DNA of 64,000 nucleotides from Gemmatimonadota bacterium (lineage in GTDB: Bacteria; Gemmatimonadota; Gemmatimonadetes; Longimicrobiales; Gaopeijiaceae), in assembly GCA_012267505.1 (NCBI GenBank), contig JAAXGI010000061.1:1-64000 (forward strand), given 5' to 3'. Shown piece after piece: positions 38,561-61,291 of this stretch. Position 1 is the stretch's first letter. Each line of letters starts with the position of its first letter. A model generated the notes under the pieces. It saw only the letters and a list, made by a program, of their open reading frames with translations. It ran no database searches and had not been told where the DNA came from. The position numbers were made by a program, and so were the translations under genes.

Positions 38561-40732
38561 CTACGGGTCCATCAGCCGGAAGACGTAGAGGGCGTTCGCC
38601 TCTGCCCTGCTCACGAATTCCGTGGCGAGGAAGGTCGCGATGCGCCAGGGGCTTCCCCCCTCGCGCGCCGCCGTCATCGCCACATACTGCACCCCATCCA
38701 CCTCGAAGGTCATCGGGAAGCCCTGGACCGTGGTCCCGAGGCGCGTCCGCCAGAGTTCCTCGCCGGTCTCGATGTCGAAGGCCCGGAACCACCTGTCGTA
38801 GTCGCCGGCGAAGACTACGCCGCCAGCCGTCGAGAGCGTCGCCGTGAGGAAGGGGGCGCGCTGCTCGACGCTCCACACCTCCTCCATCGTGGCCACGTCC
38901 ACGGCCGCGAGCTTCCCAAAGTTCCCATTCGTGCCCGGCATCTCCATCCAGGCGCGCTCGCCGCCGCTACCCCCGCTTCCGGGCTCTAGGACGATCTCGC
39001 GGGCGGTCATCTCCATGCAGCTCTGGCTGAGCGGAAGCACCATGAGTCCCGCCGCGGGGGAATAGCTCGTCGCCTGCCAGTTATGGCCTCCCGCCGTTGA
39101 CGGGCAGACCGAAACCCACTCGCCGAACCCGGCGTTGGCGATGTCGTCGCGATACTGGACCGACCCCGTCTCGGTATCGATCGAGAGGATGTTCTGGCTC
39201 ACCATTTCCCGGAGTCCGAGGAAGGTCCCGTCGCGCCGGTCGAGCTTCCAGAGGACCCCATGCTTGCCGATCGTGAGCAGCGAGGGCCGCCCCTCGATGT
39301 CGGCGAGCACCTGCTCGAAACCCTCGTCCATATCGAGCGACTCGGCCGGGACGTGCTGGCGGTGCCAGACGATCTCGCCAGTGTCCACATCGAACGCGAG
39401 CGTGGAATTCGCGTAGAGGGTCGAGTCGGCCGTCGTCATCCCGCGGCTGATCGCCGTCCACGGCTTCGCCTGCGCCGTGCCGAAGTAGACGAGCCCGAGG
39501 TCCGGGTCCCAGCTGCCGCCGTTCCAGAGTTCGCCGCCGGCCCTGAGCTCGAACGGCATATCCCCCCAGGTGTCTCCCCCCGGCTCCCCGGGACGCGGGA
39601 TCACCTCCGTGCGCCAGAGCTCGTCGCCCGTGCTCGCGTCGTAGGCGGCCACGTAGCACTTGTCCTCGACGAACCTCCCGCACCCGTTCACACCGTTGAT
39701 CACCTTCCCGTCGGCCACGATCGGACCGGCCGTGTTCCCGAATCCCGTCTCGTGCTCCCAGCGCACCTGCCCGGTCGCCGCCTCGAGCGCGACCATCGCA
39801 CCGCTCGGGCTGGCCACCATCACCAGGTCCTCCCAGAGCGCGACGCTCTGCACCCGCTGACCGATGTTCGCGTCCTTGCGGCCCCACTCCCAATGGATCG
39901 TCCCGGTAGCCCCGTCTAGCGCCTGGACCGATCCACCGGCGGTCGTCAGGAAGAGGACGCCGTCGCGCTCGACGGCAGCGGTCCGGTAGCGGCTCCCGTC
40001 CGGGAGCGCCCAGACCCAGGCGAGCTGGAGACGGCCCACGTTTCCGGTGTTGATCTGGTCGAGGGAGCTGTAGCCCTGGGAGTAGGGGGACCCCCTCCAG
40101 TGGAGCCAGTCGCCCGGTGGCGGGGATGCGAGCTCGGCGTCCGAGACCGGATCATATCCGTCGACGACCCGGAAGGTCTCGGTGACGCTGGTAGCCGTCT
40201 CATTGATCTCGCCGAGGAACTCGGGCGGCGCCTGGCGGGTGTTCGGCGACCGGATCGTCCCAACAGTCCCGGGCACCGGCGTAGTGCCGCCCGCATCCGC
40301 GGCGACCACGGGCTCGGTCCCCGGGATCACGGTGCCCGTCGATGCCATCGTGAGCTCCGTGGGTCCGACCGCCACCTCGTTGGCCTGGAGGATATAGGCG
40401 ACGACCGAGGCGATTTCGGACTCGGAGAGCGCGCCGATGCTCCCCGGAGGCATCGTCGTCGAGATCAGCTCCAGGAGGTCGCCGACCGGCCGGCCGCCCC
40501 AGATATTCCGGAAGTTCGGACCGGCGAGTTCCGGAGCTTCGAAGGAGCCCTGGAAATTCTCTAGGTGGCAGACGGCGCACTCCGCGCTGTAGACGCCCTG
40601 GCCCGCCTGGGCCTGCGCGGAGGTGTACGTCCCCTGGGCCGCGGCGAACCCTGGAGCAGCGGCGAGAACCGGGAGGACCAGGAGGGGGACCACAAGGGCG
40701 AAGGCCCCGGAGAGCGGTTGATTCGTGTTCAT
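38561..40732 (-). CDS. PQQ-dependent dehydrogenase with N-terminal cytochrome c domain (copy 2)
   Basis: 723 aa. It has a signal peptide (ends FAAAQ), a cytochrome c domain ([20 protein letters not shown] as Met region) and an eight-bladed PQQ propeller with repeated WEWG/LWRT blades. The layout and many segments match copy 1 at 8513-10630, for example [17 protein letters not shown] versus [13 protein letters not shown] and [14 protein letters not shown] versus [14 protein letters not shown]. It is a periplasmic alcohol or sugar dehydrogenase with unknown substrate. ATG 40732 starts the signal peptide; the open frame to 41326 upstream is not coding-like. It probably forms an operon with the DUF5916 gene. 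Confidence 0.85.
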
Positions 40733-40845
40733 GTAGGGAACCCTTGGCGTGATGGGTATTTCGGGCTCGAACCGCCGGTCACTATAGCGGAGCGGTCCGC
40801 TCTCTGTCCATCGAGGAAAATACTTGCCCGGGAAGGCGTTCCCGC

Positions 40846-41043
40846 CTACCCCCGGAGCTCTGGTCCCGACGGGGGCCGCGGCGCGTCCGTCCCGCCGCCC
40901 GGCGGGATCCGGACTTCCGAGGGCTCGGACGGATCGGGCGGCTCGGGCTCGACCGGGTTCTCCCTCGTGCCCACGCAGGCCGTTACGGCGAGCACCCCTG
41001 CAAGCACGATTGTCCGGGCTGCTCCTCTTCGATGGATCGTCAT
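40846..41043 (-). CDS. Small proline-rich lipoprotein
   Basis: 65 aa. Signal peptide with lipobox VTAC ([17 protein letters not shown]) and then a Pro/Glu/Ser-rich tail with no fold expected. ATG 41043 has GGAGG 8 bases upstream. It could be a small tethered peptide or a misread upstream region; the ribosome site and lipobox favour a real gene. Confidence 0.55.
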
Positions 41044-41510
41044 GGCATCCTCCATATGGCTGCGCAGTCCGCGCCCGCGCACCGATGTCCTCTCGCGCCG
41101 CCATGTCGGAGAGAGCGCCCGCGGACACCCCGAGGTCCGCTGCAGCGGCCCGGAGTCGGCGCAAGCACTGCGACGGCGTCCCGCACAGGGAAAGATAGGG
41201 ACGAGCGAGGACCAGTGGGAGGGATGGGGCGGGGCCGGGCTCCCGGTGCGCCAGCTCGGCGGGCAATTCGCAAACGGAAAGAGTGCACTTCCCGTTAACT
41301 GTGCTGCCTTCTCCCGTCGGATCCACAACCCTGCTCTACGCACCGAATGCAACCGGCCCGAGGGCCCCGCTACGCGGACCGCCCGGACTCCCGAAGCCGG
41401 CGCGGGCCGGGCCGCGCGCGGGCCAGCGGCGATTCCGGGATGCATCGGAACCGCATCTCCGGAGAGGTGCCCGTGCATTTCGCGGAGCGGGAAGGCAACA
41501 GCGGCGGGCC
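41044..41510. other. Intergenic region, nothing recognised
   Basis: 467 bases between the small lipoprotein start and the stop of the second CCWTN gene. A long minus-strand frame crosses it, but it is antisense-type noise without motifs. I could not find a terminator. Confidence 0.45.
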
Positions 41511-46543: not shown

Positions 46544-48058
46544 TCAGCGGCTCCTCGCCTCCTCGCCGCCAACGGCCCCGTTCTCGATCAGGAAATCGGT
46601 GACGGACTGGTAGCCGAAGCGCCTCGCCGCGTCGAGGGCTGTCACGCCATCGGCGTTCGCCGCATTCACGTCGATGCCGAGCTCGACCGCGATCCTGACG
46701 GCCTCGAGCGTATCGGCTTCCCGTTCCGCCGGGTCGTTGGGCTGGGCGAAGCCCACGACGCGCGGCATCCCCAGGGCCGCCATCAGCGCGGTCGTGGTGC
46801 CCTCCGTCCTAGTTGTCCAGCCTGCCGTCCTGTTTCCGGCGCCCCAGTGTTCGACGTAGAGCGACCAGAGGGGGTCGGCACCGGCATCGGCAAGCAGACG
46901 CATGACGTTCGGCTGCCCGAAGCGGGCCGCCAGCCAGAACGGCCTCGCCCCCTCGGAGGCTCCCTCCAGCGGGAGGTCGAAGTAGAAGTCGTAGGAGTCA
47001 CGCTGATAGTTCATGGCGGACCGGAGCGTTGCATTCGGGTCCGCCCCGTGCGCGAGGAGGGTCCGCACGGCCCGCTCGCTCCGCCGGAGAATCGCCGCGT
47101 GAATCGCCGCGTGGCCGTATTCGTCCGCGTTCGGGTCAGCGCCCTCCTCGAGCAGGAATTCGACCAGCTCCTCCGCATCGCTCGGCGGCAGCGCATGCGG
47201 CGACGCGAACGCGGCGCCTGCGGGGAGCACGGCACCACCTCCCTGGAATTCCCCCGGGACCGGCACGAGCCCGGCGCGCGGGGCCACGGCGTGGACGGCC
47301 ACCGTCGTGGCGCTCATCCCTCCCGCTGTCCGGTCGTTCACATCGGCTCCGGCGGCCACAAGCAGTCTGGCCGACGCGAGATCTCCCGCCCGCGCGGCGA
47401 AGAGGAGGGGCGTGAAGCCCCCTTCCTGCACCCAGAACTCGTCGTCGGGATGGGGGCTCGAACCACCGCCCTTCTGGTAGTACTGGGCCCAGGAGCCCGA
47501 CCGGGCGTGGACATCGGCCCCGCCGGCGAGGAGAGCCTCCACCACCTCCGGGTGGCGCCCTGCCGCGGCCCACATGAGCGCCGTGTGTTCGCGCGTCGCC
47601 CGCGTGTTCGGGTCGGCGCCCCTGGCCAGGAGCAGCTCGACGACTTCCACATGCCCCCCGCGGGCCGCGGTCATCACGGGCGTCTCCCCCGACATAAGCG
47701 CGGCGTCCGGGTCCGCGCCGGCGTCCAGTAGGATCCCGGCGATGGCCAGGCTTCCGTGCTCAGCGGCCGGCCAGAGCGCCGTGACGCCGAGGTCGCTGGC
47801 CGCGTTCACATCGGCGTCGGCGGCGATCAGGAGCTCGACGATTTCGGGATTTTCCCAGTAACTGGCCCATATGAGGGCCGTCGTGCCGTCTCCGAGGACG
47901 TCGTCCGCGTCCGGCGACTCCCGAAGGAGTGCGCGCACCAGATCCCAGTCCGCCGCCTTGGCGGCGCCGGCGATCCCGGGTTCCTGCACGCGCGCCGCGC
48001 AGAGGATTGCGGCCAGACCGAGCACGAACAGGCTCCGTGCGCCCGCCGCTCTCGTCAT
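46544..48058 (-). CDS. Secreted ankyrin-repeat protein
   Basis: 504 aa with an N-terminal signal peptide. At least nine ankyrin repeats are visible from residue 30 onwards, such as GTTALIWASYWENPEIVELLIAADADVNA and GETPVMTAARGGHVEVVELLLARGADPN. An irregular insertion (GSWAQYYQKGGGSSPHPDDEFWVQEGG) lies near the middle. It is probably a periplasmic scaffold. It lies 59 bases after the DUF1552 gene, in a three-gene set with DUF1592 and DUF1552. Confidence 0.9.
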   Translation of the reverse strand: MTRAAGARSLFVLGLAAILCAARVQEPGIAGAAKAADWDLVRALLRESPDADDVLGDGTTALIWASYWENPEIVELLIAADADVNAASDLGVTALWPAAEHGSLAIAGILLDAGADPDAALMSGETPVMTAARGGHVEVVELLLARGADPNTRATREHTALMWAAAGRHPEVVEALLAGGADVHARSGSWAQYYQKGGGSSPHPDDEFWVQEGGFTPLLFAARAGDLASARLLVAAGADVNDRTAGGMSATTVAVHAVAPRAGLVPVPGEFQGGGAVLPAGAAFASPHALPPSDAEELVEFLLEEGADPNADEYGHAAIHAAILRRSERAVRTLLAHGADPNATLRSAMNYQRDSYDFYFDLPLEGASEGARPFWLAARFGQPNVMRLLADAGADPLWSLYVEHWGAGNRTAGWTTRTEGTTTALMAALGMPRVVGFAQPNDPAEREADTLEAVRIAVELGIDVNAANADGVTALDAARRFGYQSVTDFLIENGAVGGEEARSR

Positions 48059-48117: not shown

Positions 48118-49485
48118 CTACACCCCTGAGAGTATGTCTATCGGCAGCTTGCCCGTGCTGGAGCCGATCCTCTCCACCGGCACATCGAACTTGTCCATCA
48201 GAGCCACGAGCATGTTGGGAAGCGGAGGATGGTCACGGTACGTGATATGGCGTCCCCCCCGGAGCCGTCCGGCTCCGCCGCCGACGAGCAACACCGGCAG
48301 ATTGTCGCCCGCGTGGCCGCTGCTGTTCGAAATGCCCGATCCGTACATGATCGTCATGTTGTCGAGGAGCGTCCCGTCGATGTCGGGGGTCGCATCGAGC
48401 TTCTCCAGGTACTCGGCGAACAGCTGCACGTGGTACAGGTTGATCCTGGACATCTTCTCGACGAGTTCCGGCGTGTTGTTGTGGTGCGAGAGCGGATGGT
48501 GCGCCTCCGACACCCCGGTCTGCGGGTACTGACGGCCGCTCAGCTCCTTGCCCACCATGAAGGTGATGACGCGCGTCAGGTCCGTCTGCAGCGCGAGGAG
48601 CTGGAGGTCCATCATGAGCCTCGCGTGCTCCTCGAAGTCGGCGGGCGCGCCCTGCGGCTGATCCATGACCGGCAACTCCATGTCGATCTGTTCCTCGGCC
48701 CTCTGGATCCGCCGCTCCACGTCACGGATCGATGAGGCAAACTGCTCGATCCTGATGTTGTCCTGCGGCCCCACCGCCTTGTTGAGCGCCGCCAGGTCGT
48801 CGAGCACGGAATCCAGGATGCTCTTCTGCTGGCGCAGCCGGGCTTCCCTCGCCGCACGCTCTGTGGAGCCGGCATCTCCGAAGAGGCGCTCGAAGAGGGA
48901 GCGCGGGTTGTACTCCATCGGGAGCGCCTGCGTCGGGCTGACCCAGGAGATCGTGTGGGTGTACACGCAGCTCTGGCCGATGCTGCAGGATCCGGCGAGG
49001 GCCGGCGCGTCCAGCGATACCTGGAGCGAGGCCAGCTGCGTCTCCTGACCCAGCTCCCTGGCCAGCAGCTGATCCATCGACACGTCGGCGAAGATATCCA
49101 CCTCGGTCTCGCCGCCGCGGTCCGTTCCCGTAAGCCAGGAGCCCGAGGCACCCGCGTGCACGTTGACCCAGCTCGCGTGGAGGCCGGAGAACTGGGTGAC
49201 CCGATCCCGGAACGGCGCCAGCGGTTCCAGAATGGGCATGAGCCGAAGAGGCTCCTCGAAGGACTCCTCGGCGTGGAAGTTGCCCGCCTGTCCCGACGGG
49301 GTCCAGTACTGCATCGCCATCCCGTTGGGGACATAGAAGGCCTGGAACCGGTGCGGCCGCTGGAGGCGGCTCCTCCCCGCAGCCGAAAGGGGGGCCATCG
49401 CGTCCAGGAACGGGAGCGCCACCGTGGCGCCAAGACCGCGCAGCAGTGTTCGTCGCGACATCGCCTTCCCGGTGAGGATCCTCAT
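48118..49485 (-). CDS. DUF1552 protein, Tat-exported
   Basis: 455 aa. Twin-arginine start (MSRRTLLRGLGATVALPFLDAM). The DUF1552 body shows AFYVPNGMAMQYW, HASWVNVHAGASGSWLTGTDR, SVDQLLARELGQ-like text and GVSEAHHPLSHHNN. DUF1552 and DUF1592 proteins occur as pairs in Planctomycetota, Acidobacteriota and Gemmatimonadota, with unknown function. It is 113 bases downstream of its DUF1592 partner. Confidence 0.92.
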   Translation of the reverse strand: MRILTGKAMSRRTLLRGLGATVALPFLDAMAPLSAAGRSRLQRPHRFQAFYVPNGMAMQYWTPSGQAGNFHAEESFEEPLRLMPILEPLAPFRDRVTQFSGLHASWVNVHAGASGSWLTGTDRGGETEVDIFADVSMDQLLARELGQETQLASLQVSLDAPALAGSCSIGQSCVYTHTISWVSPTQALPMEYNPRSLFERLFGDAGSTERAAREARLRQQKSILDSVLDDLAALNKAVGPQDNIRIEQFASSIRDVERRIQRAEEQIDMELPVMDQPQGAPADFEEHARLMMDLQLLALQTDLTRVITFMVGKELSGRQYPQTGVSEAHHPLSHHNNTPELVEKMSRINLYHVQLFAEYLEKLDATPDIDGTLLDNMTIMYGSGISNSSGHAGDNLPVLLVGGGAGRLRGGRHITYRDHPPLPNMLVALMDKFDVPVERIGSSTGKLPIDILSGV

Positions 49486-49598
49486 CGGCTTCTCCTTTCG
49501 GAACTAGGAACCACGGGCGTCCCTCTGCCCACCTATCCTTATTGCGGCCGCAGCCGCCTCTTGCTCTTCCTCGCGTCCGGCTTGCTGCGCCGCCGGTC

Positions 49599-52148
49599 TC
49601 AGTTTGCTGCGACCTCCTCGCCGGCCGCCCGCATGAGGAACGCGGGAGTCTCGACGACCCCGAGGACAATCGAAGACCAAGTGTAGTCGTCGGCCGCCGC
49701 GTCGCGGACGATCCGGCGCACTGCCGGCGCGTCGTAGTATTCCAGGGTACGGCCGAGCGCGTAGACCATGAGCTTTTCCGTCACGACGCCCACGAACGAC
49801 TCGGTGTTGTCCAGCAGGTACGACCGGAGGTCTGCCAGCCCCCGAACCTCCGTGCCGTTCGGCATCGTGCCTCCGACATCGATCGGATTGCCGGACTCGT
49901 CGCGGACGCGCCACCCCCCGAGAGCGTCAAAGTTCTCCAGCGCGAAGCCCGGAGGATCGATTGTGGCGTGACAGCTGTAGCACGCCGGATTCTCCCGGTG
50001 CTGCGCCAGACGCTCGCGTATCGACGGAGGCACAGACTCTCCCGCCTCGGCCAGGTCGGTGACCAAGTTGTCGGGGGGCGGGGGGGGAGGCGACCCTAGG
50101 AAGTTGGTCAACAGGTACTTGCCGCGGATCACCGGCGACGTGCGGTCGGGATAGGAGGTGATCGAGAGTATCGATCCGTGGCCGAGGAGCCCTCCGCGCT
50201 GCTCCGGGTCCGGCAGGTCGACCCGCCGGAACTTGGATCCGGAGACGCCGGGAATCCCGTAGTGCCGCGCCAGGCGCTCGTTGACGTGGGTGTAGTCCGC
50301 CCCGATCAGCTCCAGCACACTCCTGTCGTCGCGGATCGTGCCGGCGATGAACAGCTCCGTTTCCTCCCGGAACGCCTCCACCAGATTCTGGTCGAAGTGC
50401 GGATACCGACGGTCCTCGACCACGACCTCGTCGAGGCGGCGGAGCTCCAGCCACTGCGCCGCGAAATCGGTGGTGAGCGTCTCGACCGCGCGCGGGTCCG
50501 CAAGCATTCGCCGGACTTCCCGCTCCAGGGTCACGGGCTCGGTAAGCTGTCCCCGCTCGGCCAGGTCGAGAAGGCGCTCGTCGGGGATGCTACTCCAGAG
50601 GAAGAACGACAGGCGTGAGGCGAGTTCGAGATCGCTCAGTCGATAGGACTCGCCCGGCTCTGTCCCCGCCGGGTGCTCGTAGACGCGCAGGAGGAAGGCG
50701 GGACTGACCAGGAGCCGCTCAAGCGCATATTGGATCCCGTCGTCGAAGCTCCCGCCCTCCCGGCGACCCATATGGAAGAACTCGAGCAGCGTCTGAACCT
50801 CGTCCCCGGTTGCGGGGCGGCGATAGCCGCGACGGGCCATCCGGGAGAGGATCTCGGCCGCGCACAACTCCTCCTCCGCGCCGCGCTCCGGGTGGCAGAC
50901 GAAGATCTCCCGGCGGCTGGGCGTGTCCAGCTCCTCTCCGCTGGCCGTGACCTCGTAGGGGCCCGTGATGTCGACGGACCGCAGGAGCTGGTAGCCCATG
51001 TAGCGCTCGTCGTTGTTGATTCCCCGTCCCCTGAACGGCATCTGCGGCAGGCTCTCCGGCGCCCACTGCTCCCGGACGAACGAGACGCTGACAACGTGGG
51101 ATCCCGCCTCCACATGGAAGCGCGCTCCCACATCCTCGACGGCGTCGTGCATGTAGGCTTCCCACTCGGGATCGCCGAAGCCGGTGGCTCTCCCGGCGAA
51201 ACCACCCGTGGGCGCAGGATGGCCGGGGGGGCCTCCGATCGTGGCACGTCCCACGAGCTCGCCATCGATCCGGAACTCGAGGGTCTGCGGCCACCCTAGC
51301 CCGATGATGTAGTCCACGTACTGGCGCCAGAAGTCGACGCCGAGCGCGTACTCGCCGTCGACGGGGAAGTAGTGGACGACGGCGAGACCGCCTCGGGAGC
51401 CGAGCGGCAGGTCCTCGCCCATCCGGCTGTCCTGCTCCATGTACCTGTCGACCTCGACCGTCCGCCCCTCGGGGCCCCGGGGAGGCAGGCCCACCGCCAG
51501 GCGCGTGACCATGCGGGCCACTGACATGTAGCGCTCCACATGCGCTGTCGTGAGGGAGAGGCTCGCCGCAAGGTTGTCGAAGCTCCCGTCCGTCACCTCG
51601 TCGCCCGGCAGGAGATCCCTTACGTCCACCTCAACCGCGAGGAGATCCCGGATCGCGTTGCCGTACTCCGCCCGGTTCATGCGGTGCACGGGAGCGATGC
51701 TTCCCGGATCGATCTCCGCGGTCTCGTCGATCCCCCGCTCGAGCCAGCGTACGAGGGTAGCGTAGGTCTCGGGATCCGGGCGTGGCATCCCGGCCGGGGG
51801 CATCATGCCTGTCCGAACCTTCCGGATCACCCGCTCCCACGCCTCTGGATTCGTGGCTGGTGTCCCGACGTCCAGCATATCGAGCGCAAGGCCCCCGGGC
51901 GCTGTCCCGGCGTCTAGGGCCGCCTGGTTGTGGCAGGCGACGCAGTACTGATCGAGGGCTGCCCTGGCGCCGAGTGCATCGGAAGAGGCCGCAGGCGCGG
52001 CGGCACGCGGCGGCGGCCCGGCGGGCGTCGACCGGAGGCAAGCCGCCAAGCCCAGGCCAAGCCCGCCGGCCACGATCACGAACGGGAGTACCGATCTCCT
52101 CCCCGCACGGCAACGTCCTCCCACGATCCCCCGCTTCCTGGCGCCCAT
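49599..52148 (-). CDS. DUF1592/DUF1588/DUF1587-type cytochrome c protein
   Basis: 849 aa from ATG 52148 (GGAG 9 bases upstream). A membrane or signal segment (VLPFVIVAGGLGLGLAAC) precedes a cytochrome c motif YCVACHN. The set of DUF domains follows: DUF1587 (APVHRMNRAEYGNAIRDLL), DUF1595/DUF1592 (LSDLELASRLSFFLWSSIPDERLL), DUF1588 (ASPVIRGKYLL, changed to TSPVIRGKYLL) with an ACYSCHATIDPPGFALENFD second CxxCH, and DUF1585 at the end. It is thought to be an exported electron-transfer protein; the substrate is unknown. It precedes DUF1552 in the same direction. Confidence 0.9.
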   Translation of the reverse strand: MGARKRGIVGGRCRAGRRSVLPFVIVAGGLGLGLAACLRSTPAGPPPRAAAPAASSDALGARAALDQYCVACHNQAALDAGTAPGGLALDMLDVGTPATNPEAWERVIRKVRTGMMPPAGMPRPDPETYATLVRWLERGIDETAEIDPGSIAPVHRMNRAEYGNAIRDLLAVEVDVRDLLPGDEVTDGSFDNLAASLSLTTAHVERYMSVARMVTRLAVGLPPRGPEGRTVEVDRYMEQDSRMGEDLPLGSRGGLAVVHYFPVDGEYALGVDFWRQYVDYIIGLGWPQTLEFRIDGELVGRATIGGPPGHPAPTGGFAGRATGFGDPEWEAYMHDAVEDVGARFHVEAGSHVVSVSFVREQWAPESLPQMPFRGRGINNDERYMGYQLLRSVDITGPYEVTASGEELDTPSRREIFVCHPERGAEEELCAAEILSRMARRGYRRPATGDEVQTLLEFFHMGRREGGSFDDGIQYALERLLVSPAFLLRVYEHPAGTEPGESYRLSDLELASRLSFFLWSSIPDERLLDLAERGQLTEPVTLEREVRRMLADPRAVETLTTDFAAQWLELRRLDEVVVEDRRYPHFDQNLVEAFREETELFIAGTIRDDRSVLELIGADYTHVNERLARHYGIPGVSGSKFRRVDLPDPEQRGGLLGHGSILSITSYPDRTSPVIRGKYLLTNFLGSPPPPPPDNLVTDLAEAGESVPPSIRERLAQHRENPACYSCHATIDPPGFALENFDALGGWRVRDESGNPIDVGGTMPNGTEVRGLADLRSYLLDNTESFVGVVTEKLMVYALGRTLEYYDAPAVRRIVRDAAADDYTWSSIVLGVVETPAFLMRAAGEEVAAN

Positions 52149-52373
52149 TGCGTGCTTCTCCGTGAGCGAGCCCCGGGCCCGGCTCCTAGCTAGACGACTA
52201 AAGATAGGAGCCACGGAAGGATCCCGAAATAGCGTCCGGGTGGTGCGAAGAGCCTCGCCCGAAGGCCCCGCGACGGAGTGTGCCGGGCCCCGTGGCCCGC
52301 GGCCAGGCCGCGGGCCGTCGCAACGATCCGCCCGCCGGGGCGCTCCCCCGTCCGCTCCCGAGGACACGGACGA

Positions 52374-53117
52374 TCAGCCTCCCAGACTCGCCAAAAGCGA
52401 CGGAGCCCCCGCGCCGTCCTCGAGCCCCCGCGCGAGAAAGCCGGTCACGTTCGCCGCCGCGAAGCTCACGCCGTGAAGGTTCAGCTCCGGGCTCACCCCC
52501 GGGATCGGGCGCGGGTACCCCGAGGCGCGGAAGCGGAGAGCGGGTGCCGCGGGGCCTTCCCCGCCGGCCCCGCCCCCACCCGTACCGCTGACCCGCAGCT
52601 CCTCTCGCGCGCACTCCCGGTCCAGCTCCACTCCGGCGGTGCCGGGAAGGCACCCGGGCAGCCACACCCTCCCGTCGTGGACGGCGGGAGAGACGACGAG
52701 CGACCCCCTCCCGACCGCTTTTGCCACCACCGCCGCCATCGCGCCCCGGTGCTTGGGCCGCTGCGTGCCGAGGCTGAGGTTGATGAGGTCGACGCCCCGC
52801 CCCGCCGCCCACTCGATCGCCCGAACGAGCGCGAACGCCGTGGTCGAGAGCCGGGTGCCGAAGACGCGCACAGCCCATATCTCGGCGTCGGGAGCCTTTT
52901 CCCTGATCGCGGCGGCAACCGCCGTTCCGTGCCCGATCCGGTCCGTGAAGTCGCGCTTTTCGGCCCCGTCCGGAGCGATGTGGATCCCGCCGGCCACTCC
53001 TCCGACGTGAGGGTGCCCGCCGTGCACACCGCTGTCGACGACGGCAACCCGGACCCCGCCGCCTGTCCGGCCCGCAAACGGCGGCTCCTCCAGGGTGAAC
53101 GAGCGGAACCCGCTCAC
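52374..53117 (-). CDS. qhpE: Subtilisin-like protease, gamma-subunit leader peptidase
   Basis: 247 aa. The catalytic triad is visible: Asp28 (VAVVDSG), His63 (IGHGTAVA) and Ser218 (GVSFAAAN, variant of GTSMA). There is no signal peptide, which fits its known role of removing the gamma-subunit leader in the cytoplasm before export. GTG 53117 overlaps the qhpF stop (GTGA), indicating coupling. An N-terminal extension upstream of it is open but unlikely. It is last in the qhp operon. Confidence 0.9.
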   Translation of the reverse strand: MSGFRSFTLEEPPFAGRTGGGVRVAVVDSGVHGGHPHVGGVAGGIHIAPDGAEKRDFTDRIGHGTAVAAAIREKAPDAEIWAVRVFGTRLSTTAFALVRAIEWAAGRGVDLINLSLGTQRPKHRGAMAAVVAKAVGRGSLVVSPAVHDGRVWLPGCLPGTAGVELDRECAREELRVSGTGGGGAGGEGPAAPALRFRASGYPRPIPGVSPELNLHGVSFAAANVTGFLARGLEDGAGAPSLLASLGG

Positions 53118-54871
53118 GCGTCCCTCCCGGCGATCGGTCCGCGAAAGAGCCCGTGGAAGGCGCCCCCGCTCCGGGTCAGCTCCCACGGCCGGCCCTCCTC
53201 GACCACCCGGCCGTTTTCGAGCACGACGATCCGGTCCGCCCTGCTCGCCAGGTCGAAGCGGTGCGTGACAAGGATCGTCGTGCGTCCGGCCATGACGGCC
53301 TCATAGCCCTCGATCACGCGCTCCTCGGAGGCCGGGTCCAGGTTAGCGGTGGCCTCGTCAAGCACCAGCACGGCGGGATCGGCGAGAAAGGCACGCGCGA
53401 TCGCGACGCGCTGGCGCTCCCCGGCCGAGAGTGTCATCCCCTGCTCGCCGGCGGGGGTGGCGCCTCCCTCGGGGAGCGATGCGAGGAACTCCTCGAGGCC
53501 CGCCGCGCGGGCCGCCGCCCTCACCTCCCCGTCGGAAGCGCCGGGCCGCGCATAGCGGATGTTCTCCTCCAGGGAGGCGTTGAAGATGTAGGGCTCCTGG
53601 TCGACCGGGACGATGTGCGTCCGGAGGCTCGCCAGCGTCAACGCGCGGATGTCCACCCCGTCCAGGAGGATCCGCCCCCCGTCGGGATCGAGCTGCCGGA
53701 CCAGGAGGTCGACGACAGTTGACTTCCCGCTCCCGCTCGGCCCGACGATCGCCACGGTCGCGCCGGGCGCCACTGCGAGGCCCACCTCCGTGAGCACGGC
53801 GCCACCCCGGCCGAAGGAGAGCGAGACGGAGTCGAGCGCGACGGCGCCCTCCACGCGCTCAAGGGCGATCGCGTCTGGTGCCTCCACCACCTCGGGCTCG
53901 GTATCGACGATCTCGTCGACGCGCCGGAGCGACACCTCGGCCGTCGCGAGGTTGGCATATAGCCCCATGAGCCCGCGGACTGGCTGCAGGACCCGCATCT
54001 GGTAGGCCATGAAGGCCACGAAGGTGCCGAGGGTGATCGCCTCGTCGATCACCCGGCTCCCGCCGTAGAGAAACACGACGCCCGTGCTCACCACGAGGAT
54101 CAGCCCTGGCAGCCCGCCCGCGAGGTAGGTGAGCCACCGCATCGACAGCAACGCACGCACGAAGTCGTCGTTCTTGCCCCGGAAGCGGGCGAGCTCGCGG
54201 GTCTGGGCGTTCGAGGAGACGACGAGCCTCGTGGCCCGGATCGTCTCGATCAGGAAGGCCCCGATGTCGGCGCTCTGTTCACGCACGATGCGGACGCTCG
54301 TCTCCAGCTTCCTCCTGTAGACGACCAGCGCCCAGACGCTCGGGGGGAGGAGCACGATGCTCACCGAGAAGAGCCGCCAGTCCAGGTAGACGAGCATCCC
54401 GACGGTGCCGGCCAGGTACACCGTGCTCGTGACCCACGCGAGCGCGCTCTCGGCCAGGATCCGCTGGATCTCTGCGATGTCGCTGTTCAGCCGCGAGACG
54501 ATGTCCCCGAGCGGCCTCGATGCGAAGAAGCGGGGGGAGAGCCGCTGAAGGTGGGCGTAGACGTCGACGCGCATGTCGAAGAGGACGTCGGCGGAGAGCT
54601 TCGTGTAGACCATCCCACTGACCACGTTCAGGGCAAAGGAGGCGAGCGGGATCGCGAGGAAGAGGGAGACGGTCCGCACGAGCGCGGCCATGTCCTGGCC
54701 GAGGAGCGCGTCGTCGACGAGGTCGCGGGAGAGGAGCGGGAGGTAGAGGGAGAGCGCGGTGCCGGTCAGGCTGATGAGGAGCACTGCGGCGAGCTGCCGA
54801 CGGTACGGGAGGAGGTACCGGGCCGCCCTTCGGAGATTCGGCCTTTTTCGGGCGGGGTCGGTCCCCGTCAA
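53114..54871 (-). CDS. qhpF: ABC exporter (fused membrane and ATPase domains) for gamma subunit
   Basis: 585 aa. Six-helix transmembrane domain (about 25-300), then ATPase: Walker A GPSGSGKS (377-384), signature LSAGE (481-485), Walker B VLVLDE (501-506), His537. It is a half-transporter that works as a dimer. In Paracoccus the homologue exports the crosslinked gamma peptide. TTG 54871 shares TTGA with the qhpB stop. The open frame runs to 55375, but the extra residues are antisense to qhpB and not plausible. Confidence 0.9.
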   Translation of the reverse strand: MTGTDPARKRPNLRRAARYLLPYRRQLAAVLLISLTGTALSLYLPLLSRDLVDDALLGQDMAALVRTVSLFLAIPLASFALNVVSGMVYTKLSADVLFDMRVDVYAHLQRLSPRFFASRPLGDIVSRLNSDIAEIQRILAESALAWVTSTVYLAGTVGMLVYLDWRLFSVSIVLLPPSVWALVVYRRKLETSVRIVREQSADIGAFLIETIRATRLVVSSNAQTRELARFRGKNDDFVRALLSMRWLTYLAGGLPGLILVVSTGVVFLYGGSRVIDEAITLGTFVAFMAYQMRVLQPVRGLMGLYANLATAEVSLRRVDEIVDTEPEVVEAPDAIALERVEGAVALDSVSLSFGRGGAVLTEVGLAVAPGATVAIVGPSGSGKSTVVDLLVRQLDPDGGRILLDGVDIRALTLASLRTHIVPVDQEPYIFNASLEENIRYARPGASDGEVRAAARAAGLEEFLASLPEGGATPAGEQGMTLSAGERQRVAIARAFLADPAVLVLDEATANLDPASEERVIEGYEAVMAGRTTILVTHRFDLASRADRIVVLENGRVVEEGRPWELTRSGGAFHGLFRGPIAGRDA

Positions 54872-55992
54872 CGGTCTGCCGCTGGCGACCCCTGCGGGAC
54901 GAGGAGGAAGGAGTTCATGTCGGCGTCCAGCTGGACCTGGCGGAGGTGCTCGTAGGTCCCGGAGTCGTAGACGTCGATGGTGTTGCCAGCCGTGTAGATG
55001 TACAGGAGCTCCCCGTTCGTGCTCACTCCCAGCGACATCCGCGGCCGTCCGGGGAACTGGGTGCGCCGCTCGAGCCGGCGGTTCACGAGGTCGAAGGTGA
55101 GGAACTCGTAGCGGCCGATCTGCTCCGCGAGCCCGTAGGCCTTCGTCCCGCCCGGGGCCATCCGGAACTCGACGCTCTCCGACGGGCCGAGCGTGTAGAA
55201 GTCGACCTCCCTGGCTTCCAGGTCGACCCGGGCGATCCCCATGAGCTCCCGGTTCTGAACGGGGTCGGTCGTGCGGAAGAGCCCCGTGTAGATCCCTTCC
55301 TCGTCGTAGGGGTTGTCCGGGAAGCCGAAGGAGAGTCTCCCGAGACCCGGCTCCCACGCGTCGGTGATCTCCCACCGGTCGACCTCGGTGAAGTTCCCGG
55401 TCTCAAGGACGATGAGGTCACCGGCGTCGTAGTACACGTGCTCCCCGTCCGGGGCGAAGATGATCGAGGCGCTCTGCACCTCGCCGTCGGGGAAGTCGAG
55501 CGTGTCGGCGACCGCGCCGTTGACCAGATCGTACTTGAGCATCACCGGGTCGCCGATCTCGTAGCGGTCGGAGAGCTTTATGTACTCCCGGACAAACATG
55601 ATCGCGTAGGTGTCGTCGGGGCTCGGCGTGAAGCCGTTGATGCGGACCGTCGACGGCCCGCGGCTGAGCGAATGGGTGCCGACCGAGCTGCGGCGCGCGA
55701 TGTCCACAACCTCGAACCGATCGCCCTCCGCGTCCTCGACGTAGAGAAGCGTGCCATCGGATGAGAGCTGGATGTCGTCGGGAATCTGGGCCGCGGTCTC
55801 GATCCGGTCGACCTCCTCGAGCGTCGCCTCGTCGATGATCCGGATCGTGCCGTCGTAGGCACTGATATAGATCGTGCCGTCACCGCCCGACCCGTGCGCC
55901 TGGGCGTGTGCGCCGTTCGCGTGCACGACCACACCCAGCGCGAGCACGAGGGCGGCGGGCAGGCTCCCTGGGGAGGCCACGGGGCTCGTCAC
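54868..55992 (-). CDS. qhpB: Quinohemoprotein amine dehydrogenase beta subunit
   Basis: 374 aa. A signal peptide (1-29, ends GAHAQ) leads into seven beta-propeller blades with repeats like GTIYISAYDGTIRIIDEATLEEVDRI and LLYIYTAGNTIDVYDSGTYEHLRQV. The beta subunit contacts gamma and lines the active-site cleft. GTG 55992 overlaps the qhpC stop (GTGA). Reading from ATG/GTG codons further upstream to 56142 would run through the qhpC gene in another frame and is rejected. Confidence 0.92.
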   Translation of the reverse strand: MTSPVASPGSLPAALVLALGVVVHANGAHAQAHGSGGDGTIYISAYDGTIRIIDEATLEEVDRIETAAQIPDDIQLSSDGTLLYVEDAEGDRFEVVDIARRSSVGTHSLSRGPSTVRINGFTPSPDDTYAIMFVREYIKLSDRYEIGDPVMLKYDLVNGAVADTLDFPDGEVQSASIIFAPDGEHVYYDAGDLIVLETGNFTEVDRWEITDAWEPGLGRLSFGFPDNPYDEEGIYTGLFRTTDPVQNRELMGIARVDLEAREVDFYTLGPSESVEFRMAPGGTKAYGLAEQIGRYEFLTFDLVNRRLERRTQFPGRPRMSLGVSTNGELLYIYTAGNTIDVYDSGTYEHLRQVQLDADMNSFLLVPQGSPAADR

Positions 55993-56387
55993 GGGAAGAT
56001 CAAGTCGATGTTGCGCCAATCGTTCTGGGCCGCCGCGCACTTCGCCGTCCAGTCCGGAGAGTAGTTGAGCTGGTCGGGAACGTGCGCCGGCCAGAAGCAT
56101 GCGAGGTGACAGTCGAAGAGGTCGCGCTCGACGGGCTGGCATAGGCCGGCCGTGCCGCCGGTCGAGTCGACTTCCCAGCCGGGGAAGAAGACGAGCGAGC
56201 AGCCGAGCGGGATGTGCGCCCCCGCCTCGCCGCTCTGGAGCGCGACGACGTCGTGCTCCCCCTCCGGGTCGGTCGGAACGCCGACCGTTGCGTCGGCCTC
56301 GCCGTAGCCGCCAGCTCGGTGGCCTCCGCCCTCCGTGTGGGCTTCGATGCGGCCGGCCTTCCGGTTGATGGGCTCCAGATGCTTCAA
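55989..56387 (-). CDS. qhpC: Quinohemoprotein amine dehydrogenase gamma subunit (CTQ-bearing)
   Basis: 132 aa. This subunit carries cysteine tryptophylquinone and three thioether crosslinks. Every modified residue is present with an offset of exactly +56 from the Paracoccus numbering: Cys63-Glu72, Cys83-Asp89 and Cys97-Asp105 for the thioethers, and Cys93-Trp99 for CTQ. Motifs include GWEVD, LCQP and ACFWPAHVPD. TTG 56387 has AGGAGG 5-6 bases upstream. The stretch before the mature region is about 56 residues, longer than the about 28-residue leader reported in Paracoccus. It lacks a Sec signal, as expected for ABC export. Confidence 0.95.
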   Translation of the reverse strand: MKHLEPINRKAGRIEAHTEGGGHRAGGYGEADATVGVPTDPEGEHDVVALQSGEAGAHIPLGCSLVFFPGWEVDSTGGTAGLCQPVERDLFDCHLACFWPAHVPDQLNYSPDWTAKCAAAQNDWRNIDLIFP

Positions 56388-56427
56388 AGCGCCTCCTCGG
56401 TCTCAGCGTTTCACGGCGAATCTCGCG

Positions 56428-57918
56428 CTACGCCGCGACTCTTCCCTCGCCGTCGAAGAGCTTCAGGAACTCCGGGTTCCTCACCGCGAGCTCCCCGTAG
56501 ATCTTCAGGCAGGTATCCGTCCAGCCGCGGATCCACTCGCAGAAGTGCAGGTTCGGCGCGGCGGTCGTCCCGTAGCGCGTGTGCGCCTCGTGGTAGCATC
56601 CGCCCGAGCAGATCGGCCGCGCCCAGCAGGTATGGCAGTCGGTCTTGTTGGCGATGTGGTGCTTCTTCAGGAATCCGAACTGGCGATCGCGGTCGATCCC
56701 GCCCTGCACCGTTCCGATGCCGTGCTCCTCCGAACCGGCGAACCGGTGGCAGAGCGCGACCTCCCCATCGGTGGCCACCCCCATCAGCCCCAGCCCGGCG
56801 CCGCACCCGTACGCCTTGCTCACGCCCTTGTGGATCTCCTCGAGCGTGTCCTTCACATTCGAGAAGCCGTGGTGCCTGTGCTCGACGGCGTGCGCGAGCC
56901 ACTCCGCCGCGAGCTCGTCGAACTGCGCGAGCATGCGGTCGCAGCCCTCGTCCTCGATCGCGTAGTCCCGCATCGAGGCGGTCGTGACCGGGGCGAACCC
57001 GACCTCCCAGAAGCCGATTTCCTCGGTCAGGTGCCGGAAGATCTTCATGACGTCCAGGTTCTGGCGCGTCAGCGTCACCCGGGCCGCGATGGGGCGCGAC
57101 CTGTGCCGGCGGAGGAGCTCCCGGATCTTGGGCAGGATGACCTCGTAGCTCCCCTTCCCGTTCCGGAAGACCCGGAACTTGTCCTGGGAATCCTGGGGTC
57201 CGTCGATCGAGATGGTCACCCCGACGCGATTCTCCGCGAGCCATTCGATGATCTCGGGGCGGAGGAGGGTCGCGTTGGTCGTGAGCGAGAACTCGACCTC
57301 CTTGCCCATCTCGCGGCCACGTGTCCGCGCGTAGGCCAACGTCTTCTTCAGCACCCTGAAATTGAGGAGCGTCTCCCCGCCGAAGAAGGTGAGGTGCGCA
57401 ACCTTGTTGTCGCCCGACTCCTGGAGCATGAACTCGACGCTCTCCCGGGCCACCTCCTCGCTCATGAAGCGGGGCTTCCCGCTCTCCGGAACGATCCGGT
57501 CCTCCCCGTACTCGTAGCAGTAGGTGCACGCCAAGTTGCACTTGCTCGTGACGTTCAGGACCATCGTCGTGAGCGGGAAGTCCTGCGGGGGGAGGATCGG
57601 TAGCATGCGCTCCTCCCGGCGGTCCACCGGGCGGACCGCCTGGACCTGCGAGAGCTCGGCGACCGCCCCGTCGACCTGGTCGGCCCCGAACCGGGAGGAG
57701 AGGACCGCGCGGAGCTCGGCCGGTGTCCGCCTCGCCTCCTCGAGCGCTTCGAGCACGGCGTAGCTCGGCTCGTCGAGCCGGAAGACGCCCGCGCTCGGCA
57801 CCAGGTAGAGGAAGTGCCCGCCGGCGGCCTCGAAGTGGTGGAACTCGCGGAGCGCGAGCTTCGCGCCGCCCGCAGCCGGTCCGGCCGTCGGGCCCGTCCC
57901 CGCCACGGCCCGGCTCAT
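56428..57918 (-). CDS. qhpD: Radical SAM/SPASM thioether-crosslinking maturase
   Basis: 496 aa. The radical SAM cluster motif CNLACTYC (Cys127, Cys131, Cys134) lies after an N-terminal peptide-recognition-like region. A SPASM-type C-terminus has several further Cys (TDCHTCWARPICSGGC and HFCEW). It forms the three Cys-to-Asp/Glu thioether bridges in QhpC. ATG 57918 overlaps the qhpA stop (ATGA). It lies between qhpA and qhpC, 40 bases before qhpC. Confidence 0.95.
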   Translation of the reverse strand: MSRAVAGTGPTAGPAAGGAKLALREFHHFEAAGGHFLYLVPSAGVFRLDEPSYAVLEALEEARRTPAELRAVLSSRFGADQVDGAVAELSQVQAVRPVDRREERMLPILPPQDFPLTTMVLNVTSKCNLACTYCYEYGEDRIVPESGKPRFMSEEVARESVEFMLQESGDNKVAHLTFFGGETLLNFRVLKKTLAYARTRGREMGKEVEFSLTTNATLLRPEIIEWLAENRVGVTISIDGPQDSQDKFRVFRNGKGSYEVILPKIRELLRRHRSRPIAARVTLTRQNLDVMKIFRHLTEEIGFWEVGFAPVTTASMRDYAIEDEGCDRMLAQFDELAAEWLAHAVEHRHHGFSNVKDTLEEIHKGVSKAYGCGAGLGLMGVATDGEVALCHRFAGSEEHGIGTVQGGIDRDRQFGFLKKHHIANKTDCHTCWARPICSGGCYHEAHTRYGTTAAPNLHFCEWIRGWTDTCLKIYGELAVRNPEFLKLFDGEGRVAA

Positions 57919-59567
57919 CCGCCGGTCACCCTCCACGGCTCCCACCGGAGGTAGAGCGGGACCGTTACGACGAGATGGGCGCGGGCCTGGAGGCTCTCGG
58001 TCGAGCCGGGCGGCGTGTAGCGCGCCACCACCCACACATCGCCCACATTGTTGCGGCTCCCCACCCGCTCCGGGTTGGGCCCGTCGAGGGCCGGCGTGAA
58101 GCGCCCGTTCTGGTCGAGCGTTCCGACGAAAGAGATGTCGGAGTCGTCCAGCGTGGCCGCGTACTCCTCCGTCGACCACTCGGCGGCCACCACTCCCAGC
58201 CCGAGATCATCGGCCGTGTTGGCCTCGCCGTCGGGGCCGTCGCTGTAGGCGGTCGCCTCGAACTGCTGGTACCCCTTCGGAAAGGCCGCGCCTCCGATGC
58301 GGGCCATCCCGGCCTGAGGGGTGACCTCGATACGGTCGACCTCGTCGAAGACGGTGAGCGCGCCCCGGAGGGATAGCCCCGCGAGGAAGAGATCGCGGCT
58401 TCCCTCGGGCGCGCCGGCGGCAACATCGAGCCGGAGAGTCGCACGCTCACCGGACGACGAGGTGATGGCCGAGACCGCCACGCCGGGCCCGAAGTCCAGG
58501 TCAGCCGCGGAGAGCCCGTCAGGAAGCGCGGCGCCGTAGAGCGTGACCACGGTCGACTCGCCGGCCTTCACAGCCTTCGGGTGGATGCCGCTCACGAGCG
58601 GTCCGCCCGTCACCCGGCTCAGCGCGACGTCCGGCCCGAACTCGTCGTACGCTCCGGTAAACCAGCGCCCGGACATCTCCTGCCAGTCGCGCTCGATGAG
58701 CATGACCTCCCGGAGCTCTCCCTCTTCGCCCGGTCCCTCGAAGGACCGGCCTCGCCACTGGAAGCCCGTATAGATGATCGCGCTTCCCGTCCTCGTCACC
58801 TCGCGGCCCGAGCGCGCCACCGTGTAGGTCGTTCGCGTCTCGACCCCGTCCGGGCCGGCGCCGGGAGCGATGTCGACCCGGCCGTAGATCGGCCCCTCCC
58901 CGGGGAGGTGTCCGGCGAGCGCCCACCTTCCCGAGAGCCGCGGGGTCCGCATCGTCGCCGACCATGCCGACCACTCGGGCGTTTCGAGCGGAAAGACCTC
59001 GGAGAGGTGGTCGACTGCGCGGTCCATCGCATACCCGTCCTCGCTCCGTCCCCCGCGGGTGAGCGCCTGGAAGTCCGAGAGGGGATAGAGACCCCGGTGG
59101 GTGGCCATCAGGAGCTCCCACTCCTCCCCGGTGCGGCGCTGCGTGATCACGCGTCCCATCGAGTGGCACGCGATGCAGGTGGCCTCGGTGTCGTCGTCGG
59201 CCGTGTAGTCGTAGTCGATCAGGCGCCGCTCGACCTCGAAGAGGCCGGGCCGGACCTCCTCGGGGGCGATGCCGTGGTTGTTCGAGAGGTAACGGACCAT
59301 ATCGCGGGCCGTCGCCGGCTCGAGCTCGACCCCGTTGAGCATGACCATCCGGCGGATCGTCGTCTGCCAGCCCTCGGGCGTTTTCCGCATGTAGGAGATG
59401 CGCGACATGCGGCCCGTGCCGTCCGTCAGGTGGCAGCCGGCACACCGCTCGCGGACGAGCTGGCTCTCGACCGGGATGCCGCCCTCGGGCAGCCCGGCGG
59501 GTTCCTCCTGGGCGTGCGCCAGGGACGGCGCGAAAAGCGCGAGGGCTGCGATCGTGGCTAGGCGCAT
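57915..59567 (-). CDS. qhpA: Quinohemoprotein amine dehydrogenase alpha subunit (dihaem)
   Basis: 550 aa. Signal peptide (1-20, LAHAQ). Two c-type haem sites: Cys42/Cys45/His46 (ERCAGCH) and Cys131/Cys134/His135 (ATCIACH). C-terminal beta domains follow. It takes electrons from the CTQ of gamma and passes them to a periplasmic cytochrome or cupredoxin. ATG 59567 starts the signal peptide; 43 further upstream codons overlap the intergenic space. It follows qhpG by 125 bases. Confidence 0.93.
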   Translation of the reverse strand: MRLATIAALALFAPSLAHAQEEPAGLPEGGIPVESQLVRERCAGCHLTDGTGRMSRISYMRKTPEGWQTTIRRMVMLNGVELEPATARDMVRYLSNNHGIAPEEVRPGLFEVERRLIDYDYTADDDTEATCIACHSMGRVITQRRTGEEWELLMATHRGLYPLSDFQALTRGGRSEDGYAMDRAVDHLSEVFPLETPEWSAWSATMRTPRLSGRWALAGHLPGEGPIYGRVDIAPGAGPDGVETRTTYTVARSGREVTRTGSAIIYTGFQWRGRSFEGPGEEGELREVMLIERDWQEMSGRWFTGAYDEFGPDVALSRVTGGPLVSGIHPKAVKAGESTVVTLYGAALPDGLSAADLDFGPGVAVSAITSSSGERATLRLDVAAGAPEGSRDLFLAGLSLRGALTVFDEVDRIEVTPQAGMARIGGAAFPKGYQQFEATAYSDGPDGEANTADDLGLGVVAAEWSTEEYAATLDDSDISFVGTLDQNGRFTPALDGPNPERVGSRNNVGDVWVVARYTPPGSTESLQARAHLVVTVPLYLRWEPWRVTGG

Positions 59568-59692
59568 GATCGGCTCGGGGAGCACGTGTCGGCGGGGGGA
59601 TTGCCGGCCAACATCAGCGAGTCGGATGTCAGGAAAGAAATAGGAACGGCCGGACGCGCCGACAAGTGAGGGGCCGGACCCACGGCCGCGAC

Positions 59693-61291
59693 TCATGCCC
59701 CGAAGCGGTTCTCCAGCACGCCTTTGGCGATCAGCACCGAGAGCGCGCCCAGGAAGTCGGGGAGCGTGACTTCCTCATGGCGGGCGGCGAAAGCCTCGAA
59801 GAGATCGGGGACCTGACCGAAGCCGGGCGCCATCTCGACCAACGCCGGGAGGTCGACGCCCCGGAGGTGGCGCACCCCGGCTTCCCACCCCGGCACAATG
59901 AGCCGCCTCTCCAGGACGACCCGGTTCCCCTCGACGGTCGGCTCCTCGATGAATCCGGGCGTTGCTGCCGCCCGGAACCGGATGCCGGGGCTTGCCTTGA
60001 GCGAGGCGAAAGCAGCGAGGACGGCGGGATTGTCGCGGAGCTCGGCCGCGTCCGGTTCTCCAGTGAAGCCGCTCCGGTCGAGCTCGTCGACCTGGCGGGC
60101 CCGGCGGCTCCAGAAGCCGTGTCCGTACCTCTGCCCCGCCTCCCGGGAGAACCCGGCCGAGAGCCGCCGGTAGGCGTCGTAGATGGCCCGCTCCCGACGC
60201 TCGAAGAGCGCCAGCGACGGTCCGGTCATCTCCGCGGCGGCGAGGCAGGTATGCACAGCCACGGCCGCGAGCCAGGCGGACGCCAGCGCCTTCTTCACCC
60301 CGAACGAGGAGAGCGGATCGATGAAGGAGCCCGCGTCGCCTACGAGCAGGAAACCGGGGCCGGCGTAGCGCGTCGCGTCGTAGGGGGTCGCGGTGCACGC
60401 CCACGGCGCACGTGTGCGAATGGCTCCCCCGAGGAGGCGGGAGATATGCGTCGTCTTGGCCAGCTCGGCCGCGTACGTCCCGCCGATCGGACCGCCCCGC
60501 TCCAGCGCCGTGAGCCTCGGGTCCACCATGGCCGTGAAGTAGCGGACGCTGCTCGAGATGGGGACTGACCACGCCCAGCCGTCCTCGTAGCTCTCGACCA
60601 GCGTGTGCGTCTCGTCATCGAGTCCCCATCCGCCCGTCCGCTCCCAGACGCCGACGAGCGCCAGCGTCGACGGGCCCCGCTCCCGCCGCCTCAGCCCGCG
60701 CTTGGCGATCACGCCGGTGCGGCCCGTGCAGTCGAGGACCCACCGGGCCTCCAGGGAGCGGGAGGCCCCGCTCAGGCCGTAGAAGACAGTGGCCGGCCGG
60801 CCGGACCCGGCGGCCGGCCGCTCCCGATCCTCGACCCGGCGGACGTCGGAGCCTTCCACGACATGCGCACCCGCCTCCCGCGCCAGTCCCAGGAGGACGC
60901 CCTCGAGGTCGCGCTGGACCACCTGATAACCTCTCGCGCCGTCGCCGAAGCCCTCGTGCCGGGCCCCCGAACCGTCCCACCAGACCGTGTTGCCCGTCGT
61001 GCGGACGAAGCCTGCGGCCTCCACCGAGATCCGGACCCCGAAGAGGTCGAAGAGCCTGTCAATGCTCGGGGGGAGAGACTCGGCGAGCGGCGGCGTGGTC
61101 GCGGGACGGGTGAGGAGGACCACGGAGCGCCCCCACGCCGATAGGAGCCGTGCAGCGGACGCACCGGCGGGGCCGCCGCCCAGAACGGCGACGTCGACGG
61201 GACCGGCCGGGTCCGCGCCGGGTACTCCGCCGCGTCCGCCCGCCGCGTGCGGCCCGGTCACCCTAGCGGGGTGGGGCGGCCTGACCGCCAC
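59693..61291 (-). CDS. qhpG: FAD-dependent tryptophan monooxygenase for CTQ biogenesis
   Basis: 532 aa. N-terminal FAD-binding motif VAVLGGGPAGASAARLL (GGGPAG 38-43). The GD motif reads LLVGDAGSFIDPLSSFGVKKAL, as in flavin halogenase/monooxygenase relatives. QhpG dihydroxylates the gamma-subunit Trp (here Trp99 of QhpC) to start quinone formation. GTG 61291 is the longest open start without a clear ribosome site; GTG 61261 (522 aa) is an alternative. It is the first gene of the operon. Confidence 0.88.
   Translation of the reverse strand: MAVRPPHPARVTGPHAAGGRGGVPGADPAGPVDVAVLGGGPAGASAARLLSAWGRSVVLLTRPATTPPLAESLPPSIDRLFDLFGVRISVEAAGFVRTTGNTVWWDGSGARHEGFGDGARGYQVVQRDLEGVLLGLAREAGAHVVEGSDVRRVEDRERPAAGSGRPATVFYGLSGASRSLEARWVLDCTGRTGVIAKRGLRRRERGPSTLALVGVWERTGGWGLDDETHTLVESYEDGWAWSVPISSSVRYFTAMVDPRLTALERGGPIGGTYAAELAKTTHISRLLGGAIRTRAPWACTATPYDATRYAGPGFLLVGDAGSFIDPLSSFGVKKALASAWLAAVAVHTCLAAAEMTGPSLALFERRERAIYDAYRRLSAGFSREAGQRYGHGFWSRRARQVDELDRSGFTGEPDAAELRDNPAVLAAFASLKASPGIRFRAAATPGFIEEPTVEGNRVVLERRLIVPGWEAGVRHLRGVDLPALVEMAPGFGQVPDLFEAFAARHEEVTLPDFLGALSVLIAKGVLENRFGA

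Follow-up and report, generated by a model that had tools for sequence, protein, structure and literature searches.

The qhp locus and its gene order

The analysed DNA, referred to below as the window, was a stretch of 64,000 nucleotides from the contig JAAXGI010000061.1. Its minus strand carried seven open reading frames running from 61291 to 52374 in the order qhpG-A-D-C-B-F-E (Table 1), and these were the leftward genes that the initial annotation had described as an operon for quinohemoprotein amine dehydrogenase (QHNDH). Stop/start overlaps of 4 nt were found between A and D (ATGA), C and B (GTGA), B and F (TTGA), and F and E (GTGA), which is the expected pattern for a single translationally coupled unit. 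The start positions were refined, and two of the genes began with TTG, namely qhpC (at 56387, preceded by GAGGAGG) and qhpF (at 54871).

Table 1. Positions of the qhp genes and of the Cys117 codon in the window; for each gene the upper coordinate is the refined start.
Feature	Position	Strand	Description
qhpG	59693..61291	-	probable FAD-dependent peptidyl-tryptophan dihydroxylase; NF049967 207 bits, FAD_binding_3; start 61291 or 61261
qhpA	57915..59567	-	alpha subunit, di-heme c, signal peptide; TIGR03908 491 bits, four QHNDH alpha Pfam domains
qhpD	56428..57918	-	radical SAM/SPASM enzyme, Cys-to-Asp/Glu thioethers in QhpC (by analogy); TIGR03906 556 bits
qhpC	55989..56387	-	gamma subunit precursor with leader; NF037958 118 bits; ungapped against 1jmx_G
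qhpB	54868..55992	-	beta subunit, seven-bladed propeller, signal peptide; from profile and predicted fold
qhpF	53114..54871	-	ABC exporter; ABC_membrane and ABC_tran; position between B and E conserved
qhpE	52374..53117	-	probable subtilisin-like leader protease; NF049966 152 bits, Asp/His/Ser motifs
QhpC Cys117 codon	56037..56039	-	invariant fifth cysteine

The same gene order was common to the loci of Gemmatimonadota and Acidobacteriota, and no additional conserved operon gene was found beside the seven in the flanks of up to 80 loci. A promoter scan found nothing. No gene for QhpR, the amine-inducible AraC-type regulator, adjoined the operon, and the sole AraC-domain match in the genome was on contig C32; we counted qhpR as accessory and not as defining of the enzyme. 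Directly downstream of qhpE (48118-52367, minus strand) were a DUF1552 (HXXSHH) gene and a gene for a DUF1592/1588/1585 cytochrome-type protein, neither of which proved to be a conserved neighbour of qhp among the relatives. The minus strand of the window also encoded a long ankyrin-repeat protein (46544-48058) and a PQQ-type dehydrogenase propeller that included a cytochrome c domain (38561-41326).

Subunits, maturation enzymes and crosslink residues

The initial annotation had assigned three structural subunits and four maturation factors to the operon, and the evidence for this differed between the genes. QhpA, QhpD and QhpC passed the NCBIfam equivalog cut-offs (274, 453 and 50 bits for TIGR03908, TIGR03906 and NF037958, respectively). 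QhpA had two CxxCH heme motifs (CAGCH and CIACH) and matched 1jmx_A with an E-value of 7e-79 in a search of PDB sequences. In QhpD, the CxxxCxxC motif (CNLACTYC) and the SPASM set of seven cysteines were present and conserved. QhpF was recognised by its ABC exporter architecture and by its place between B and E, which was held in relatives; no QhpF-specific model was seen. QhpG and QhpE had the right motifs and positions but scored somewhat below their cut-offs (240 for NF049967 and 165 for NF049966). NF049967 was the best family for QhpG, an orthologue occupied the same position in relatives, and QhpE contained the motifs of the Asp-His-Ser triad. Equivalents of the catalytic residues Glu42 and Trp183 and of Trp74 were retained in QhpG but those of Arg47 and Arg70, which mattered in substrate binding in the Pseudomonas putida protein, were not.

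The most divergent subunit was QhpB, which reached 36.6 bits against a TIGR03907 cut-off of 223 and did not match the solved beta subunits in a single-sequence search. A profile built from 55 relatives matched both of them over the full length (1jmx_B, 3e-10; 1jju_B, 3e-9). Additionally, these were the best two PDB matches of the predicted fold (pLDDT 87.5; TM 0.76-0.79), with other propellers clearly behind. Thus, judging by the profile and the modelled fold, QhpB is the QHNDH beta subunit despite the missed cut-off, and automatic annotation misses this subunit in the lineage.

All eight QhpC residues named in the initial annotation were present and fell into the pairs C63-E72, C83-D89 and C97-D105 (crosslinks) and C93-W99 (the cysteine tryptophylquinone cofactor, CTQ), with Asp89 corresponding to the catalytic Asp33 of Paracoccus. 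Residues 61-132 aligned without gaps to residues 5-76 of 1jmx_G and 1jju_C, and 82 relatives kept all eight residues, save for a single position that read X in one of the sequences and could not be called. The claim of exact Paracoccus spacing therefore stood for the core but did not extend upstream of it. The leader opened with MKHLxPxNxKA, as in Paracoccus, and the putative (D/E)VVA-like cleavage sites aligned between the two proteins, but the leader up to this site was about 49 residues long compared with 28 in Paracoccus, and the stretch from the site to the first core cysteine was 14 residues compared with 7.

In comparison to the QHNDH of Paracoccus denitrificans and Pseudomonas putida (1jju and 1jmx; qhpABCDEFGR), the window shared the three subunits, the two c-type heme motifs, the CTQ and three crosslink pairs in register, and the maturation genes qhpD and qhpF, with probable qhpE and qhpG. 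It differed in the divergent QhpB, the longer QhpC leader and site-to-core stretch, the gene order and the lack of an adjoining qhpR, as well as in a cysteine at QhpC position 117 together with Asp/Glu128, Asp92 in place of Gly/Ala, and Cys470 in QhpD. Two other systems were related in part. The LodA and GoxA oxidases contain CTQ and are made with a QhpG-related flavoprotein (LodB/GoxB), whose models also matched QhpG from the window; however, they are single-subunit oxidases and lack the hemes, the radical SAM enzyme and the crosslinked gamma subunit that the operon encodes. The maturases of SCIFF/ranthipeptides (PapB, TIGR03974) are likewise SPASM radical SAM enzymes forming thioethers in a peptide, but their models scored only about half of the QhpD model on the window (289 and 273 versus 556 bits).

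The families and their cut-offs, the PDB matches of the alpha, gamma and (by profile) beta subunits, the beta fold, the invariant residues, the gene order and the QhpD tree described below all supported the QHNDH assignment of the initial annotation. We therefore consider it very probable that the locus is a complete QHNDH operon of a Gemmatimonadota lineage with canonical biogenesis and amine oxidation. Against this reading we counted the three scores below cut-off (QhpB, QhpG and QhpE), the two arginines without equivalents in QhpG and the missing adjacent regulator. If the locus works like the characterised system, three Cys-to-Asp/Glu thioethers would be introduced into QhpC by QhpD, QhpG would dihydroxylate Trp99, and QhpE would remove the leader by cutting close to the conserved (D/E)VVA site. 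It has been proposed that QhpF exports the processed QhpC to the periplasm, where Cys93 and Trp99 would form CTQ. The gamma subunit would then assemble with the di-heme alpha subunit and the propeller beta subunit, and the enzyme would oxidise primary amines and pass the electrons to cytochromes. The sequences themselves show which genes are present, which residues they keep and to which lineage they belong; from the analogy with the characterised system we infer the activity, the formation of CTQ, the site of cleavage and the substrate. Three loci of the aldehyde-dehydrogenase family elsewhere in the genome could in principle suffice for downstream aldehyde oxidation.

The divergence of the beta subunit and QhpG, together with lineage-specific changes in QhpC and QhpD, would also fit a repurposed QHNDH-like machinery that produced a crosslinked QhpC-like peptide and a di-heme protein but no amine dehydrogenase. 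We regard this as improbable, since the four alpha domains, both heme motifs and every residue of the CTQ and of the crosslinks, among them the catalytic Asp89, were retained.

Lineage-specific residues and the fifth cysteine of QhpC

Beyond the four cysteines named in the initial annotation, which passed over it, QhpC had a fifth one at position 117. This residue was present in all 84 distinct cores of the Gemmatimonadota/Acidobacteriota type, and the alignment placed an alanine there in four QhpC sequences from proteobacterial plasmids and in both solved enzymes (1jmx_G and 1jju_C). Position 128 was aspartate in 83 of the 84 cores and glutamate in the remaining one, and Gln or Gly in the four proteobacterial sequences. 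Most lineages with Cys117 were also marked by Asp92, a position occupied by Gly or Ala in the Paracoccus and Pseudomonas enzymes. In QhpD, Cys470 lay ten residues past the last SPASM cysteine and was found in 47 of 53 sequences, with glycine at this position in the four proteobacterial ones and in L187 and L188. The latter two loci lacked both Asp92 and Cys470 but kept Cys117, so at least two separate lineage-specific changes had occurred.

Cys117 appeared to be unpaired in a periplasmic gamma subunit whose four other cysteines would all be crosslinked. An inter-subunit disulfide was ruled out because QhpA and QhpB had no conserved non-heme cysteine, and Asp92 was ruled out as an obligatory partner because L146/L185, L187 and L188 combined Cys117 with Gly or Ala at position 92. 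Tentatively, Cys117 might be a fourth substrate cysteine of QhpD, forming an extra Cys-to-Asp/Glu thioether with Asp/Glu128 as the candidate acceptor. QhpC of the Gemmatimonadota/Acidobacteriota type would then carry five thioethers including CTQ, and the characterised proteobacterial enzymes would represent a reduced form. We consider this rather unlikely. The association of Cys117 with Asp128 may stem from a single evolutionary change and is therefore weak evidence of a bond. The predicted model of QhpC was too poor (pLDDT 45) for a distance between Cys117 and Asp128, and the low-confidence helix that spanned Cys117 in it, if real, would disfavour a bond between the two.

Both solved QHNDH structures came from one corner of the family, and much of its sampled diversity was in Gemmatimonadota and Acidobacteriota, whose enzymes differed consistently in the most heavily crosslinked part. 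The invariant Cys117 offers a concrete test of the bond number and acceptor choice of QhpD.

Host lineage, distribution and variant loci

The initial annotation had suggested a Gemmatimonadota-like host and proposed its 16S gene as a check, which could not serve here because neither the window nor the assembly contained an rRNA gene. The suggestion itself was borne out by kinship with same-family genomes carrying qhp (G101 with locus L046, Longimicrobiales; G109 with L035, BD2-11 clade) and with a same-class genome (Ca. Palauibacter poriticola, G077 with L045), so the host belonged to Gemmatimonadota, probably to the order Longimicrobiales. In the QhpD tree, Gemmatimonadota formed one clade (support 100/98) in which the window adjoined L030 from a same-family genome, and the proteobacterial enzymes were on a separate long branch, although the root of this tree was unreliable. 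QhpD from the window was 75% identical to that of a same-family genome and about 38% identical to proteobacterial QhpD. The single clade of Gemmatimonadota QhpD gave no sign of a recent transfer from Proteobacteria. Although the assembly was a fragmented draft of 318 contigs and several relatives had proteobacterial names in their NCBI titles, a wrongly binned proteobacterial contig is highly improbable given this identity, the position in the Gemmatimonadota clade and the recurrence of orthologous operons across many genomes of the family.

Among the sampled genomes, qhpA exceeded its cut-off in 62 of 298 Gemmatimonadota species and qhpC in 61 of them, and qhpC was also found in 29 of 396 genomes of the acidobacterial sample. 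The best 80 QhpD matches among GTDB genomes had titles that were nearly all from Gemmatimonadota or Acidobacteriota. Proteobacterial sampling on plasmids yielded 26 records from five genera, and there were no records in phages and viral contigs. According to a paper from 2021 (PMC7876137), the number of bacterial species with the qhp operon exceeds 1300; in the QHNDH literature consulted we did not find a discussion of Gemmatimonadota or Acidobacteriota as hosts. The idea that this locus widens the host range is weak, since qhp was common in Gemmatimonadota and occurred in Acidobacteriota, NCBIfam already calls qhpA, qhpC and qhpD, and so many species had been reported before. The operon encodes a true QHNDH from a lineage that has received little study; the enzyme itself was already known and the host was no surprise.

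Four relatives (L031, L089, L086 and L105) were titled Gammaproteobacteria, Woeseiaceae or Rhodospirillaceae, but their qhp genes and kinship placed them in the Gemmatimonadota or acidobacterial sample, and they were likely mislabelled MAGs. For the genome titled Woeseiaceae, the sampled genome set was identical to that of the acidobacterial centre.

Several relatives had variant loci. No recognisable qhpG was found within the fetched flanks of L140, L186, L189-L191, L194, L036 and L079, where the gene could be elsewhere or another flavoprotein could act in its stead. In a same-family genome (G014, L227:5965-7231), an intact qhpB followed the last 39 residues of qhpC with no other full qhp gene nearby, which reflected either a decaying locus or an assembly join. 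The qhp locus was split in the Longimicrobiales relatives L051, L059, L071 and L192-L193; in the genome of L051, qhpC-B was about 26 kb from qhpD, which had no qhpA nearby. Among the acidobacterial loci, L098 had two qhpC-qhpB pairs, L085 had two qhpA genes, and L079/L087 were two qhp clusters on one contig.
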